Shown piece by piece: positions 18,416-27,049 of a stretch of 30,542 nucleotides of DNA. The stretch is from a virus. The stretch is taken from IMG/VR virus record IMGVR_UViG_3300033144_005855, positions 1-30,542 of that record; one strand, given 5' to 3'. The position numbers and the translations under genes are program-made. Below the pieces are notes generated by a model. It made no database searches, was not told the DNA's origin, and was given only the letters and a program-made list of their open reading frames with translations. How positions within the stretch are numbered: the first letter of the stretch is position 1; each line of letters starts with the position of its first letter.

Positions 18416-18718
18416 TTAAGCATTTAAAGCAGTATTTATTTTCTTATCAAGAAAATCAAAATTAAAGTCTATTTTATCTAATTTTGCTTTAATTTTTTTT
18501 GCCTGGGCAAGGGTCATGGTAATAGGAAGCCGACCTAAAACAGAAGTAGCTCGATTTCCTGCTGTGGATACAGGCACCCTCGCTTTTTTAGTCGCCTTGC
18601 GTGCTGTCGTTGCCTTTAAGGGAGTTGTATTCGTTTTTTTTGAAGCTGCTTGAATTTTGCTTGTCGTCTTCTTACTCGCTGCTTTTTTAGTCACTGCTTT
18701 TTTTGTAGCTTTTGCCAT
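18416..18718 (-). CDS. Histone H1-like Lys/Ala-rich DNA-binding protein
   Basis: The product of about 100 residues has an N-terminal half built of KKA/KKT repeats (AKATKKAVTKKAASKKTTSK ... ATTARKATKKARVPV), typical of histone H1-like and AlgP/Hc1-type nucleoid proteins that bind DNA without sequence specificity. Unlike pure tails, it has an ordered-looking C-terminus (GRLPITMTLAQAKKIKAKLDKIDFNFDFLDKKI). Tandem ATGs exist at 18721 and 18718; AAGGA is 7 nt from the second, so I prefer 18718. It is transcribed opposite to the rest of the genome from a near-consensus promoter. A role in compacting or shielding phage DNA or altering the host nucleoid is inferred. Confidence 0.8.
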   Translation of the reverse strand: MAKATKKAVTKKAASKKTTSKIQAASKKTNTTPLKATTARKATKKARVPVSTAGNRATSVLGRLPITMTLAQAKKIKAKLDKIDFNFDFLDKKINTALNA

Positions 18719-18750
18719 CATAAATTCCTTGTTAAAAAAATAGTTGAGTG

Positions 18751-20721: not shown

Positions 20722-20933
20722 AAAATGCGTTTGATATTAACCAAGTGTTTCGATTTCTTATCAAGAGAATGCGCCGCCCTTGCGATTTAAAACAAAAACA
20801 TGAACTCATGCATGAGTTAAATTTAGAACGGCTTAAAACATTAAACCTGATCATTTTAGATGGGAGTCAAAATTTTGACACCAATACGGAGATTTTATGC
20901 AAAGCAAAACAAAAAGAATTAACGAAAATTTAG
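20709..20933 (+). CDS. Small hypothetical protein
   Basis: A 74-residue frame beginning 13 nt before the preceding stop. No good ribosome-binding site is visible, so expression would rely on coupling. The sequence (FDINQVFRFLIKRMRRPCDLKQKHELMHELNLERLKTLNLIIL) is helical and basic. It overlaps the next gene by 37 nt. The assignment as a gene is moderate to weak. Confidence 0.4.
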   Translation: MVKLKNAFDINQVFRFLIKRMRRPCDLKQKHELMHELNLERLKTLNLIILDGSQNFDTNTEILCKAKQKELTKI

Positions 20934-21139: not shown

Positions 21140-21156
21140 AAATTTAAAACGGAGAA
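21140..21156 (+). promoter_or_regulatory. Shine-Dalgarno leader, copy 1 (upstream of gp157)
   Basis: AAATTTAAAACGGAGAA sits 6 nt before the gp157 ATG and contains GGAG. The identical 17-mer recurs before recT at 21687-21703. Bases 21144-21154 (TTAAAACGGAG) are the exact complement of the loop of the predicted small RNA at 24190-24200. Confidence 0.6.
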
Positions 21157-21162
21157 TGAAAT

Positions 21163-21684
21163 ATGAAAAAAGAAACGAAGCTCACGCTATGGGGCATCGC
21201 TGACGAATTGAATGCCCTTGATGAATTATTAAAATTAGACCAAGGCGAAATCACAAAAGAAATGGAAGAACTTCAAAGCGAGGCGCAAGTCCTTCTTGAA
21301 CAAAAAGTAGACTCTTGCTGCGGTTTTGTGGACATGGAAAAAAATAATATTGCTGCTGCAAAAGATCGAATCAAAGAATTACAAAATTTTGTAAAATCAA
21401 AAGAGAATAAAATTAAAAATTTCGAGAACTTCGTCAAAAGCTGCATGGAAAAAACAGGCAAGGATATTTTTAATGGAGACTTCCGGCAAATTAAACTCAG
21501 AAAGCCGACCGATATTGTAGTTATTCAAGACGAGAATAAAATCCCAATGGAATATACCGTGGTGGAAACTACAGTTAAAATTAAAAAAGCTGAAATTAAA
21601 AAAGCGCTCAAAAATGGAGAAAAAATAGAAGGCGCAAGCTTGATGAAAGGAAATTCCAGCGTCATAATGGGATTAAAAAAATAA
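21163..21684 (+). CDS. Siphovirus Gp157 family protein
   Basis: The 173-residue protein follows the Gp157 family layout: an N-terminal helix (LTLWGIADELNALDELLKLDQGEITKEMEEL), then EQKVDSCCGFVDMEKNNIAAAKDRIKELQNFVKSKENKIKNFENFVKSCMEKTG (coiled-coil helices), then FRQIKLRKPTDIVVIQDENKIPMEYT and a final IKKAEIKKALKNGEKIEGASL. Family members are found next to single-strand annealing proteins and have been linked to phage resistance in Streptococcus thermophilus phages; the molecular role is unclear. Here it is directly upstream of recT with an identical leader, pointing to co-regulation with recombination. Confidence 0.88.
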   Translation: MKKETKLTLWGIADELNALDELLKLDQGEITKEMEELQSEAQVLLEQKVDSCCGFVDMEKNNIAAAKDRIKELQNFVKSKENKIKNFENFVKSCMEKTGKDIFNGDFRQIKLRKPTDIVVIQDENKIPMEYTVVETTVKIKKAEIKKALKNGEKIEGASLMKGNSSVIMGLKK

Positions 21685-21686
21685 AC

Positions 21687-21703
21687 AAATTTAAAACGGA
21701 GAA
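21687..21703 (+). promoter_or_regulatory. Shine-Dalgarno leader, copy 2 (upstream of recT)
   Basis: Identical to the 17-mer at 21140-21156 and located 4 nt before the recT ATG. Bases 21691-21701 are complementary to the loop of the predicted small RNA. Identity in a noncoding position beyond the GGAG core suggests shared translational control rather than chance. Confidence 0.6.
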
Positions 21704-21707
21704 AAAA

Positions 21708-22688
21708 ATGAATCAACTTACACCAGTGCAAGCGTGCGAAAATTTTATTAACAATTTAGAATCAAAGTTTATCGAAGTTTCAAAAGAGAATAAAACCGAA
21801 TTAAAATTTAAACAGGAAAGTCAATTTGCAATTCAACTTCTGCAAGAAAATAGTTATTTATTAAAAATAGCTCAACAAAATCCTGACAGCTTAAAAAATG
21901 CAATTATAAATATTGGAGCGATAGGACTAACCTTAAATCCCGTTGAAAAAAAAGCTTATCTTATCCCAAGAAAAGGCAGGGTTTGCCTTGATGTCTCTTA
22001 TATGGGGCTTGCAGACATAGCAATAAACACGGGTTCGATTAAATTTGTTCAAGCAAAAATGGTTTTTTCAAAAGATGAGTTTGAAGTTTTAGGCGCAACA
22101 AAAGAACCTATTCATAAATATAACCCTTTTCAAGAGAGAGGAGAATTTATTGGAGCTTATTGTTTAGCAAAAACTTGCGACGGTGATTATTTAACTGAAC
22201 CTATGAGCAAAAAAGAAATTGAAGCGATACGAGATAGATCGGAGTCATGGAAGAAAAATAAGTCAGGGCCATGGGCGACAGATTTTTCCGAAATGGCAAA
22301 AAAGTCTACAATACGTCGGGCGCAAAAATTGTGGCCAAAAACCAATAAGTCTATTCAAATGGACAACGCTATTTCAATGCTGAATCAAGTCGAAGGCATA
22401 GATTTTGAAGCAGAAAAAAAGGAAGCAGACGAAAAACAAAATGCGGAAGTGAAAGCCGCAGTTGAAAAACAAAAACTTGAAGCTCAAGTCGACCGTGAAG
22501 AAAAAAACGAAATAATGGCAGCGATAGCAGCAAGAGCAGGAGAAGCTTGCGAGGGAAAAACTGCTCAAGAGAAAGGCGAATTTATGGTCAATACGATGAA
22601 AATAAAAAGCTTCAAGGAACTTGAGTATAAATCAGCAAAGCAACTTGAGATTATTTATAACTCTGTCGATTGGGAGTGTGGAAAATGA
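21708..22688 (+). CDS. recT: RecT-family single-strand DNA annealing protein
   Basis: The 326-residue protein shows the RecT core: SQFAIQLLQENSYLLKIAQQNPDSLKNAIINIGAIGLTLNPVEKKAYLIPRKGRVCLDVSYMGLADIA, then GAYCLAKTCDGDYLTEPMSKKEIEAIRDRS, then WATDFSEMAKKSTIRRAQKLWP. RecT anneals complementary ssDNA in phage recombination, usually with an exonuclease partner. No RecE- or YqaJ-type exonuclease is obvious beside it. The VRR-NUC protein at 24230 is the only nuclease of this region. A Lys/Glu-rich linker (about residues 230-275) leads to a C-terminal extension (EFMVNTMKIKSFKELEYKSAKQLEIIYNSVDWE) that may bind partners. The stop overlaps the next gene as ATGA. Confidence 0.9.
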   Translation: MNQLTPVQACENFINNLESKFIEVSKENKTELKFKQESQFAIQLLQENSYLLKIAQQNPDSLKNAIINIGAIGLTLNPVEKKAYLIPRKGRVCLDVSYMGLADIAINTGSIKFVQAKMVFSKDEFEVLGATKEPIHKYNPFQERGEFIGAYCLAKTCDGDYLTEPMSKKEIEAIRDRSESWKKNKSGPWATDFSEMAKKSTIRRAQKLWPKTNKSIQMDNAISMLNQVEGIDFEAEKKEADEKQNAEVKAAVEKQKLEAQVDREEKNEIMAAIAARAGEACEGKTAQEKGEFMVNTMKIKSFKELEYKSAKQLEIIYNSVDWECGK

Positions 22689-23595: not shown

Positions 23596-23819
23596 ATGAG
23601 GACGGAGTTATGAGTGATGAAGAAATCAATTCTCTTCCTTCTTATTTGCAAAATGACTATAGAAAAATGAATAAAAATATAATAAATGGTAAAAATTTAT
23701 GTGAGAACTGCGGTGGAACTGGAAATCAATTGTTTTCCATGTATCAAACTTGCGATGATTGTTATGGAAGAGGTTTTATTGATGAAGTGTGTAAGCAAGT
23801 TGGAGGGTTGGGGAGATGA
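23553..23819 (+). repeat. Pair of 43-bp direct repeats, each at the 3' end of a gene
   Basis: The segments 23553-23595 and 23777-23819 are 43 bp each with 36 identical positions; five of the seven differences are transitions in wobble-like places. Each encodes IDE(A/V)CKQ(T/V)GGLG(K/R), contains a TGGAGGG ribosome-binding site and ends in the ATGA that starts the next gene. Only the two ends are the repeat; the DNA between is the zinc-finger gene. Confidence 0.65.
23592..23819 (+). CDS. DnaJ-type zinc-finger small protein
   Basis: The 75-residue protein carries LCENCGGTGNQLFSMYQTCDDCYGRG (Cys37, 40, 54, 57), two CxxCxGxG-type knuckles as in half of the DnaJ central zinc domain. The N-terminus is acidic (MNEDGVMSDEEINSLPSYLQNDY). 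It begins at the ATGA overlap with the preceding gene behind TGGAGGG; a second ATG at 23610 with GAGG upstream is an alternative. It ends with the repeated IDEVCKQVGGLGR tail. Such small proteins may bind zinc or partners; the function is unknown. Confidence 0.65.
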   Translation: MNEDGVMSDEEINSLPSYLQNDYRKMNKNIINGKNLCENCGGTGNQLFSMYQTCDDCYGRGFIDEVCKQVGGLGR

Positions 23820-24082: not shown

Positions 24083-24106
24083 AATGAAAAGCAAAATAAC
24101 TGAGAT

Positions 24107-24136
24107 TTGACAAAATAAAACTAAATCATTTAAAAT
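24107..24136 (+). promoter_or_regulatory. Strong sigma70-type promoter for the predicted small RNA
   Basis: TTGACA (24107-24112) is a perfect -35 box. TAAAAT (24131-24136) is a good -10 at 18-nt spacing; TTAAAA at 24130 gives 17. A start near 24143 is expected. A well-formed terminator lies only about 70 nt downstream, so the primary product would be a short RNA. Confidence 0.6.
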
Positions 24137-24142
24137 TTTCTT

Positions 24143-24215
24143 AATAACTATTTCATCATAGTATTTAAGAGGGGCATCAATTTTTACAACTCCGTTTTAA
24201 TTGATGCCTTTTTTT
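24143..24215 (+). ncRNA. Predicted phage small RNA with anti-Shine-Dalgarno terminator loop
   Basis: A transcript of about 73 nt would run from the TTGACA promoter to the T-run at 24209-24215. Its 3' hairpin loop exposes CTCCGTTTT, and CTCCGTTTTAA (24190-24200) is the exact 11-nt complement of TTAAAACGGAG in the leaders of gp157 (21144-21154) and recT (21691-21701). The zinc-finger gene at 20897 has a one-mismatch site. No ORF fits the interval. The same element could instead be an attenuator for the downstream nuclease gene. Expression is predicted, not shown. Confidence 0.55.
24173..24215 (+). terminator. Intrinsic terminator
   Basis: GGCATCAATT (24173-24182) and AATTGATGCC (24199-24208) form a perfect 10-bp stem with a 16-nt loop, followed immediately by seven T (24209-24215). 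It ends the upstream recombination operon and/or the predicted small RNA. The next gene starts 15 nt after the T-run with its own AGGGAAGG site. Confidence 0.8.
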
Positions 24216-24229
24216 GTCAGGGAAGGCAA

Positions 24230-24622
24230 ATGAAGGAATCGGTGATTCAAGCTTCAATTATTTCTTATCTAAAAACCATAAAGCTTGCCTATGTTTTAAA
24301 TGTCTCGACGACTGGCGTTTATGACCCATCAAAAAAACAATTCAGATCAAATAAAAATCAAAAAGGTTGCTCAGATATTTTATTCTTTTGGAAAAGTACG
24401 TGCGTTGCGATTGAAGTTAAAACTCGACTTGAGTATCGTTTTGTTAATAAGCATTACGATCGATTGATGAAGTTATATTTATGCAAAACAAAAAGAGATA
24501 GGCACCTTCACGATCAAATTTTATTCATTGAAGGCTTAAAACGAAGTGGTAACAAAGGTTTTTTTACTGACTCAATCGACGACACTAAAAAAAAACTAAT
24601 TGAGATAATGCATGAAAATTGA
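24230..24622 (+). CDS. VRR-NUC domain nuclease
   Basis: The 130-residue protein has the VRR-NUC (PD-(D/E)XK) core: Gln7 in the N-terminal helix, GCSDILFFWKSTCVAIEVK with Asp49, Glu62 and Lys64, then LHDQILFIEGLKRSGNKGFFTDSIDD. The family acts as a structure-specific nuclease or Holliday-junction resolvase in phages and as FAN1-like repair enzymes. In this position it is the likely nuclease partner for RecT-dependent recombination or resolution before packaging, which is inference. The start has AGGGAAGG 7 nt upstream. It overlaps the next gene by 11 nt. Confidence 0.85.
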   Translation: MKESVIQASIISYLKTIKLAYVLNVSTTGVYDPSKKQFRSNKNQKGCSDILFFWKSTCVAIEVKTRLEYRFVNKHYDRLMKLYLCKTKRDRHLHDQILFIEGLKRSGNKGFFTDSIDDTKKKLIEIMHEN

Positions 24623-24815
24623 ACTTGAGAAAAGATATTGCGCAATCAAAGCCTGTTCAAATTCATTCAAAGTTTTAATTCCTGATAAAACCGTGACTTG
24701 CTCTTATTTTTGTGAGCAAGAATATAAGTATGGTTTAATAAAAGATAAAAAACGAAAGCAATTCAAAAAAGAACCCATCCGCCATCATCTCCTTGAGTGG
24801 GAAGACATCGACTGA
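24612..24815 (+). CDS. Small putative zinc-binding protein
   Basis: The 67-residue protein contains RYCAIKACSNSFKVLIPDKTVTCSYFCEQEYKYG with Cys10, 15, 30 and 34, a plausible C4 zinc site of the kind 'C...C..F.......FCS..C'. The rest is basic. It overlaps the VRR-NUC end by 11 nt. The function is unknown. Confidence 0.6.
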   Translation: MKIELEKRYCAIKACSNSFKVLIPDKTVTCSYFCEQEYKYGLIKDKKRKQFKKEPIRHHLLEWEDID

Positions 24816-24898
24816 ATGTAGAACATGACGACAAGCGCAAACCTTAACTCTCGCTAAAACTTGCCAAAACAACGCTAAATTAATTACCATTAAATAAA

Positions 24899-24942
24899 AG
24901 TGCTATTGTTTGGAAATTAAAATTAATAGCGCTCTTTACAAT
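24899..24942 (+). promoter_or_regulatory. Inverted repeat and possible promoter upstream of the parB-like gene
   Basis: AGTGCTATT (24899-24907) and AATAGCGCT (24925-24933) pair over 9 bp (one G-U) around a 17-nt loop. TACAAT (24937-24942) is a fair -10 just downstream, but the -35 is poor. CGCTA cores also occur at 24852 and 24873. An operator controlling this promoter is plausible. The wider 24816-24964 stretch has no ORF. Confidence 0.35.
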
Positions 24943-24964
24943 TTACATGAATTAATGAGGCGAA

Positions 24965-25534
24965 ATGAAAGTTGAAATTAAGTGCAAGGGCAGTCGAAAT
25001 GCAAAACTTGATGACCTAAAACCGTTGCAGGGCGATCTAAAAGAATTATCAGAAGAAAATTATAATAAATTAAAAACAGAAATATTAGATCTCGGATTTT
25101 CTGCGCCATTTTTTGTTTGGTCTCACATCGAGGGCGTGGCAAGAGATACCCTAGATTTACTTGACGGGCATCAACGCAGCAAGACTTTAATTTGTATGCG
25201 TGAAGAAAAAATCGAAATGCCTGACGAATTCCCAATTGTTGAAGTTGATGCGAAATCTTACAAGGAAGCAAAGAAAAAAATTCTCGCTATAAGTTCAAAT
25301 TATGGAACCATGACAACGCTTGGCCTTGAATCATTTATGGAAGATATTGACATGGAGCTGGATGAGATCGCGGAGGCATTTACTTTTGATGCAATCAATT
25401 TTGATCGAATGGCGGAAATGAATAAACCTGTCGAGGAAAATTACGGCGATAAAAACAATGAAATAGATACCGATAATTTTGGAAACGATCTTCAGCATAC
25501 TTGTCCTTCCTGTGGGTTTGAATTTAATGGATAA
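24965..25534 (+). CDS. ParB/sulfiredoxin-fold nuclease-domain protein
   Basis: The 189-residue protein begins with the ParB-like fold (LDDLKPLQGDLKELSEENYNKLKTEILDLGFSAPFFVW ... LDLLDGHQRSKTLICM) containing the DGHQR motif (67-71) that corresponds to the ParB GERR/phosphate-binding box. It ends with CPSCGFEF (Cys180, 183), half of a zinc ribbon. Phage ParB-like proteins of this type are commonly encoded beside DNA methyltransferases. They are not plasmid partition proteins and may act as CTP/ATP-dependent or nuclease-like factors. Here it lies just before the HNH endonuclease and the cytosine methyltransferase, suggesting one modification module. Confidence 0.8.
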   Translation: MKVEIKCKGSRNAKLDDLKPLQGDLKELSEENYNKLKTEILDLGFSAPFFVWSHIEGVARDTLDLLDGHQRSKTLICMREEKIEMPDEFPIVEVDAKSYKEAKKKILAISSNYGTMTTLGLESFMEDIDMELDEIAEAFTFDAINFDRMAEMNKPVEENYGDKNNEIDTDNFGNDLQHTCPSCGFEFNG

Positions 25535-25556
25535 TTAAAAAAGGATTGGGTGTGAA

Positions 25557-26087
25557 ATGAAGGAAGTATGGGAAAGGATTAAAGATGAGCGGTACGACGT
25601 TTCGTCGAAAGGTAACATAAGAAGTCATCGGTATATGAAAAATCTAAGGCATCAGATTAATAATTGTGGGTATGCTCGAATTGCTTTAGGTTCGACAAAA
25701 AACAGGAAGTTTGTTCATAGGCTTGTCGCTGAATACTTCTGTGAAAAATCATTGAGTAGAGACGTAGTTAACCATGTAGATGGAAATAAATTAAACAACT
25801 CAAGTGGCAATTTGGAATGGACAACAAGGTCAGAGAATGACTTGCATAAGTTCAGGATAGGCCTTGCTTTGGCAAGTAAATGTCAAGACTCATCAAGGGC
25901 AAAGCTTTCAAACGAGCAGGTATTGAAGGTATGTACGATGCTTAATACTGGTATTGCGTGCACCCACATTGCTATCGAGTTCAAAGTTAAAAGAAAAACA
26001 ATAAGCGATATAAAGTTGGGAAAAACATGGAATTCACTTACAAATGGAATATTACAGACCTCAAAAAAGTTAAAAAGAATGGATTGA
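25557..26087 (+). CDS. NUMOD4/HNH homing endonuclease
   Basis: The 176-residue protein has an N-terminal NUMOD4-like motif (WERIKDERYDVSSKGNIRS), an HNH_3-type core (HRLVAEYFCEKSLSRDVVNHVDGNKLNNSSGNLEWTTRSENDLHKF, about residues 55-100) and a C-terminal helix-turn-helix (LSNEQVLKVCTMLNTGIACTHIAIEFKVKRKTISDIKLGKTWNSL). This is the domain order of free-standing phage homing endonucleases, which cut cognate DNA lacking the insertion and spread by gene conversion. It lies between the ParB-like gene and the methyltransferase, overlaps the methyltransferase by 61 nt in another frame, and has AAGG upstream of the ATG. Confidence 0.88.
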   Translation: MKEVWERIKDERYDVSSKGNIRSHRYMKNLRHQINNCGYARIALGSTKNRKFVHRLVAEYFCEKSLSRDVVNHVDGNKLNNSSGNLEWTTRSENDLHKFRIGLALASKCQDSSRAKLSNEQVLKVCTMLNTGIACTHIAIEFKVKRKTISDIKLGKTWNSLTNGILQTSKKLKRMD

Positions 26088-27049
26088 AAGTATTTTCTTG
26101 TTTTGCTTGTGGCGGGGGAAGTTCGTTTGGCTACAAGATGAGCGGATTCGACGTAATTGGTTGCAACGAAATTGACCCTGAAATGATAAAAATTTACAAG
26201 AAAAATCATAATCCGAAATTTGCCTTTTTAGAATCAATCAAGAGTTTTAAACTAAGGGATGACCTGCCAAAAGAATTATACAATCTCGATATACTTGACG
26301 GGTCACCACCTTGCTCTAGTTTTTCCATGGCAGGCGCAAGGGAAAAAGGTTGGGGGAAAAAAAAGAAATTCCGGGAAGGTCAAGTTGCTCAAGTATTGGA
26401 TGACCTGTTCTTCGATTTCATTGAACTAGCTCACAAGTTACAGCCAAAAATTGTAATTGCAGAGAACGTTAAGGGAATGATTCAGGGAAATGCAAAAGGC
26501 TATGTTAAGCAAGTTATAAGTTTATTTAATACTGCTGGTTATGACGTGCAGCTATTTCTACTGAATGGCGCTTCCATGGGTCTACCCCAACGGAGAGAGC
26601 GGGTTTTTTTTATTTGCAGGCGCAAGGACTTACGCATTAGTAAATTGTCAATGACATTCTCAGAGAAGGCGATACCCCTAAAGGTTGCCTTCAAAGGATT
26701 AACAGAGAAGGGTTGTGATAAGAGCTCGTCTAAGAATTATAATTTATGGAAAAAATGCCCGCCAGGCAAAGGCTTGTCTAGTGTACATCCAAAAGGTTCG
26801 CTATTTAACTGGGCTAAATGGTCAAAAGACTTGCCAGCCCCAACACTAACTTCTAATTCGCATTTGTGCTTTCATTGGGAAACCATGCGTGCATTTACAG
26901 TGGTTGAACTGAGCTTAGTGAGCTCTTTTCCTTTAGATTATGTATTTAAGTCTAGTCCGGAGGCTGGTTACCAAATGGGGATGTCAGTCCCACCATTAAT
27001 GATGCACAAAATCTCAAGGGAAATTGCGAGACAATTTTTTGGAGTTTAA
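26027..27049 (+). CDS. DNA (cytosine-5) methyltransferase
   Basis: The 340-residue protein has the C5-MTase motifs in order: motif I FSCFACGGGSSFG (23-35), motif IV GSPPCSSFS with catalytic Cys96, motif VI ENV (146-148), motif VIII QRRERVFFI (188-196), and motif X-like GYQMGMSVPPLMMHKISREI near the end. It transfers a methyl group from SAM to cytosine C5, probably to protect phage DNA from host restriction. No cognate restriction gene is visible, so it looks like an orphan MTase. The start at ATG 26027 gives about 20 residues before motif I, all encoded within the HNH overlap; TTG 26084 is an alternative start. Confidence 0.9.
   Translation: MEFTYKWNITDLKKVKKNGLKVFSCFACGGGSSFGYKMSGFDVIGCNEIDPEMIKIYKKNHNPKFAFLESIKSFKLRDDLPKELYNLDILDGSPPCSSFSMAGAREKGWGKKKKFREGQVAQVLDDLFFDFIELAHKLQPKIVIAENVKGMIQGNAKGYVKQVISLFNTAGYDVQLFLLNGASMGLPQRRERVFFICRRKDLRISKLSMTFSEKAIPLKVAFKGLTEKGCDKSSSKNYNLWKKCPPGKGLSSVHPKGSLFNWAKWSKDLPAPTLTSNSHLCFHWETMRAFTVVELSLVSSFPLDYVFKSSPEAGYQMGMSVPPLMMHKISREIARQFFGV

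Follow-up and report, generated by a model that had tools for sequence, protein, structure and literature searches.

The stretch of viral DNA analysed here, termed the window, comprises 30,542 nucleotides (IMG/VR record IMGVR_UViG_3300033144_005855); the phage that it represents is denoted W, and a relative found on the IMG/VR contig 3300033143_003062 is denoted G. Between positions 24083 and 24229 of the window there is an interval that no open reading frame of at least 50 aa covers, and at position 24230 an endonuclease gene starts. The plus strand of this interval carries a promoter-like sequence, TTGACA-N18-TAAAAT (24107..24136), composed of a -35 hexamer (24107-24112), an 18-nt spacer and a -10 hexamer (24131-24136). 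It scores 11/12; a scan of 12.5 kb, with 55 promoter-like sites, gave no better score and only one other as good. On the same strand the promoter is followed by an intrinsic terminator (24173..24215), recognized by sequence, fold and hairpin scan, that contains a 10-bp stem (5′ arm GGCATCAATT, 24173-24182; 3′ arm AATTGATGCC, 24199-24208), a 16-nt loop (TTTACAACTCCGTTTT) and a T7 tail (24209-24215), and that lies directly 5′ of the endonuclease gene. Folded as RNA, this hairpin reaches -21.3 kcal/mol (z = -6.0). A small RNA of about 70-75 nt (24143..24215, plus strand) is predicted from sequence and fold, with the start placed according to the -10 box and the end according to the T run; Rfam 15 gave no covariance-model match at gathering scores anywhere in the window. 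The initial annotation had proposed the promoter, the hairpin, the T7 tail and the ORF-free stretch, and its placement of all of them proved correct to the base.

Another strong promoter-like sequence, TTGACA-17-TAGAAT, is located on the minus strand (18779-18751), upstream of a small gene (18416-18721) that is directed opposite to the early operon, belongs to no Pfam family, has 55% identity in G and may be considered a candidate regulator. The interval 25557-27049 of the window, located between the gene for the ParB-like protein and those for the terminase, encodes a NUMOD4/HNH homing-type endonuclease and, after it, a C5-cytosine methyltransferase, neither of which was matched in G.

The terminator loop and the stem edge together contain the putative seed CTCCGTTTTAA (24190..24200, plus strand), the last two bases of which constitute the stem edge. 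This seed is the exact reverse complement of TTAAAACGGAG, which is present in the Shine-Dalgarno (SD) regions of two plus-strand genes, i.e., gp157 (Sipho_Gp157, PF05565, E 1.7e-28; 21163..21684), where it occupies 21144..21154 in front of ATG 21163, and recT, encoding a single-strand annealing protein (PF03837, E 3.4e-30; 21708..22688), where it occupies 21691..21701 in front of ATG 21708. Exact copies of TTAAAACGGAG occur in the window twice on the plus strand, in these two leaders, and once on the minus strand, in the loop, so that the complementarity described in the initial annotation, as well as the position of the edge bases of the seed within the stem, was found as described. According to the predictions both sites are accessible, with an opening cost of 0.7-1.3 kcal/mol (0.7 for the gp157 site and 1.0 for the recT site). 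The exact seed pairs more strongly (-12 to -13 kcal/mol) than the anti-SD does in the model (-6.6 kcal/mol), which uses a generic bacterial anti-SD that may not be that of the host. Opening of the window seed costs about 5 kcal/mol, because two of its bases sit in the stem edge. It must be taken into account that the gp157 and recT leaders of the window have an identical 17-nt stretch in common, therefore they are not independent and count almost as one observation.

Weaker plus-strand sites were also considered. An 8-nt match, ACGGAGTT (23602..23609), which had been missed before, precedes ATG 23610 of a gene encoding a CXXC zinc protein; with a spacing of 2 nt and an opening cost of 6.2 kcal/mol it is doubtful as a target. 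The zinc-ribbon gene at 20897, for which a near match had been claimed, has only the 6-nt ACGGAG (20886..20891) in common with the targets and was not counted.

Scans of IMG/VR and of genomes provided one informative relative with the same gene order as the window, namely G, which is represented by the loci L002 and L014+L015, L002 being part of L014+L015. The identity between G and the window is 71% for gp157, 73% for the endonuclease, 55% for RecT and about 87% for TerL. In the orthologous intergenic region of G, immediately ahead of its endonuclease gene, lies TTGACA-N18-TAAAAT (L002 5872-5901), identical to the window promoter in its hexamers and in the length of the 18-nt spacer. It is accompanied, again at the position known from the window, by a terminator-like hairpin with the arms AAAGGTCC/GGACCTTT (z = -3.25), whose stem sequence is unrelated to that of the window. 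The T run of this hairpin (TTTCTTGT) is imperfect, and part of its loop pairs with itself. The features by which a small RNA is recognized in silico, i.e., own promoter, intrinsic terminator, short length and an ORF-free stretch, are thus found in both phages.

The loop of G, CTCCGATTTT, differs from the window loop by an A inserted after CTCCG, and the matching T is present in two leaders of G: that of gp157, ATCGGAGAAT, and that of a gene for a small protein rich in cysteine (ATG 16526 in G), AAAATCGGAG, each of which matches the G loop over 10 nt. Cognate contiguous matches therefore amount to 11 and 11 nt in the window and to 10 and 10 nt in G, and each of these four strong matches falls on an SD. 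When loops and leaders are swapped, the window loop matches the G leaders over 5 and 5 nt, and the G loop matches the window leaders over 8 and 7 nt. Covariation between loop and leaders, which had been proposed as a check in the initial annotation, is in this way observed: the altered loop of G fits its own altered leaders and fits poorly those of W. Since the CTCCG/CGGAG core is common to both phages by descent, the flanks alone covary independently, and the complementarity of the seed to a distant target mRNA is accompanied by covariation in a single relative with an inherited core. The arrangement of recT also differs between the two phages. In G recT overlaps gp157 at an ATGA junction and has neither a leader nor a site of its own, whereas in the window recT is uncoupled from gp157 and has its own site. 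It would be consistent with these sequences that one site is enough for the coupled genes of G and that the separate genes of the window need a site each. Thus, the proposal that the RNA is aimed at gp157 gains support from the covariation seen in the sequences of G, and the claim that recT is a direct target is supported in the window, with its own exact site, but not in G.

Several other features of G were recorded. The gene for the large terminase (L015:4315-6981; G001 24315-26981) contains an in-frame intein (Pfam Intein_splicing, E 7.3e-11), the insertion point of which corresponds approximately to residue 450 of the intein-free terminase of the window. The early region of G also encodes a highly repetitive protein (EGYQIVEGYQIVKGNQ...; L002:4148-4750), no counterpart of which was seen in the window. 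In a further hairpin of G (L015:18470-18500; G001 about 38475) CGGAGGGG lies within or beside the 5′ arm and GCCCCTCTTT follows on the 3′ side, so that this terminator includes an SD-like sequence.

The chance level of the loop-leader match was estimated with shuffled loops in which CUCC was kept and the flanks were permuted, because any CUCC loop pairs with Shine-Dalgarno sequences anyway. Duplex energy, by which the initial annotation would have judged the interaction, did not set it apart: 46% (window) and 67% (G) of the flank-shuffled loops reach the best observed value, so the energies are not exceptional. Since duplex energy does not discriminate, exact contiguous matches were used as the test. 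Two window leaders with an exact complement of at least 11 nt are obtained with 0.3% of the CUCC-kept shuffles. Among other CTCC sites in the window none of 80 reaches 9 nt against the gp157 leader, where the loop of the predicted RNA reaches 11 nt, and among those in G none of 122 reaches 10 nt against the gp157 leader of that phage. When CTCCG is fixed and only its flanks are shuffled, a match to both targets arises in 3.5% of cases in the window (p about 0.035) and in 0.18% in G. These statistics were designed post hoc, when the match had already been seen, with the exception of gp157 as the target in G, which was predicted from the window. By itself the window evidence is only moderately better than chance, which is suggestive but not convincing, and the weight of the case comes from one independent relative, G.

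The combination was also sought more broadly, among 572 terminator-type hairpins from 89 loci (the two phages, RecT relatives and TerL relatives). An upstream promoter-like site together with an SD match of at least 10 nt characterizes two of these hairpins, that of the window and that of G, and in these 89 loci the combination was not found outside the two phages. Apart from G, the RecT relatives (up to 54% identity over part of the protein) have no hairpin with a promoter and an SD match of at least 10 nt. The TerL relatives at about 60% (L097, L099, L102) gave neither a gp157 or endonuclease match nor such a hairpin in the sequence scanned; this is consistent with an sRNA that travels with the recombination module, an empty search being weak evidence. 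Phage records contained no endonuclease homologue, and gp157 was matched in them at about 28-34% only; genome contigs contained no relative of the endonuclease or RecT. Some matches were rejected. The only exact occurrence of CTCCGTTTTAATTGATG in IMG/VR, in L007, lies in an unrelated sequence with no hairpin or synteny and was attributed to chance. The matches of at least 10 nt in L003 and L086 come from hairpins that overlap or adjoin their own 'target' on the opposite strand and have no upstream promoter; the promoter is also lacking for L028/L034, which share one 10-nt match, and for L026.

The location of the hairpin just before the endonuclease start in both phages, in the order promoter-leader-terminator-gene that is usual for attenuators, would fit an element acting only in cis, either an attenuator of the endonuclease gene at 24230 or a plain terminator of the upstream operon, with an incidental CUCC loop that pairs with SDs at similar energy whatever its flanks. 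Yet, the contiguous match of the loop to the gp157 leader is not equalled by other CTCC sites in either genome and tracks the change of the leader, and the minimum-energy fold of either phage is the terminator, no clear antiterminator being seen in the folds obtained. An element acting in cis, the main rival explanation, accounts for the position and not for the covariation, and we regard it as unlikely to be the whole explanation; a double role, as a cis element and a trans-acting RNA, is possible. It may also be asked if a terminator loop of an AT-rich genome, once it contains CTCC, resembles an SD complement by chance. The energies inside the shuffled range, the modest p value for the window with CTCCG fixed and the 17-nt stretch that makes two window leaders nearly one observation speak for such coincidence, but G repeats the promoter, the hairpin position and the cognate altered match, which makes coincidence quite improbable.

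For several known phage RNAs the target is a host mRNA or another RNA (PreS targets dnaN; AgvB is an anti-sRNA), and by analogy the predicted RNA could function as a sponge, activate its targets or regulate host mRNAs; its match to gp157 would then be secondary or part of a feedback in which the gp157/recT mRNA titrates the RNA. All four strong sites are situated on the SD, the position expected for a translational block, and we give such readings very little credence. We consider it likely that the locus encodes a phage trans-acting sRNA that uses its terminator loop as a seed and represses gp157 (and recT). Observed in the sequences are the anatomy of the locus, the exact complementarity, the kept position, promoter and hairpin, and the loop-leader covariation in one relative. 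It is proposed that an sRNA of about 70-75 nt would be transcribed from its own sigma-70-type promoter and end at its own terminator. The terminator loop, exposed and composed of CUCCG and a run of U, would form a duplex of 10-11 nt with the SD region of gp157 and, in W, likewise with that of recT. Such pairing would block ribosome loading and result in less of the annealing/recombination pair. Hence the RNA probably turns down the recombination genes, perhaps, as the initial annotation suggested, at the early-to-late transition; that it represses rather than activates them, as well as the timing of this action, we infer.

Seeds of this kind were described in bacterial chromosomes. The LhrC1-5 RNAs of Listeria monocytogenes carry CUCCC(...)UUUU in a terminator loop, besides two further sites, and they pair with the SD of lapB and block its translation (PMC4132741). 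The phage loop, CUCCG(A)UUUU, has nearly the same motif; however, LhrC is chromosomal, present in five copies, equipped with three redundant CU-rich sites and directed to host targets, whereas the phage RNA has one site and phage recombination targets. Membership in the LhrC family is not indicated, as there is no Rfam match in the window and only one CU-rich site in the RNA, and the resemblance is likely convergent, with no homology claimed. In Helicobacter pylori the C/U-rich terminator loop of RepG binds the target and suffices for repression (PMC8295292), which resembles the predicted mode of target binding, but RepG is chromosomal and recognizes a G repeat in the tlpB 5′ UTR.

Among phages, c4 RNA of P1/P7 is an example of the same kind of action within a phage: by loop pairing it blocks the RBS of the phage ant mRNA (reviewed in PMC12197685). 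In contrast to the predicted sRNA, which has a separate promoter and recombination targets, c4 controls the antirepressor and immunity. The c4 RNA and ant derive from one transcript, from which c4 is released by processing. VpdS of phage VP882 and PreS of phage lambda are, like the predicted RNA, trans-acting and phage-encoded, and they favour phage replication (PMC12197685). Both differ from it in being Hfq-dependent in known hosts, with PreS acting on host dnaN and VpdS on host sRNAs and on phage and host mRNAs, and that review ascribes to neither of them a terminator loop directed at gp157/recT. Homology to LhrC, RepG, c4, VpdS or PreS is not claimed. Since c4 of P1/P7 and VpdS act on phage mRNAs, the initial statement that no phage system of such form had been described was too strong. 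In the literature covered, from which most subscription journals were absent, no phage sRNA aimed at an annealing-protein gene was found, nor any described case of targeting gp157/recT via a terminator loop.

The chances seem even that this is a phage RNA of no known family in which one terminator-loop seed shuts off the gp157-recT module, and that the loop and its targets co-evolve, giving each phage a private RNA-target code. Control of phage recombination genes is usually regarded as transcriptional. If the proposal is true, an sRNA that limits the synthesis of an annealing protein would serve as a post-transcriptional timer of recombination and replication. Comparison of terminator loops with leaders between sister phages can, moreover, reveal unannotated phage sRNAs without RNA data.
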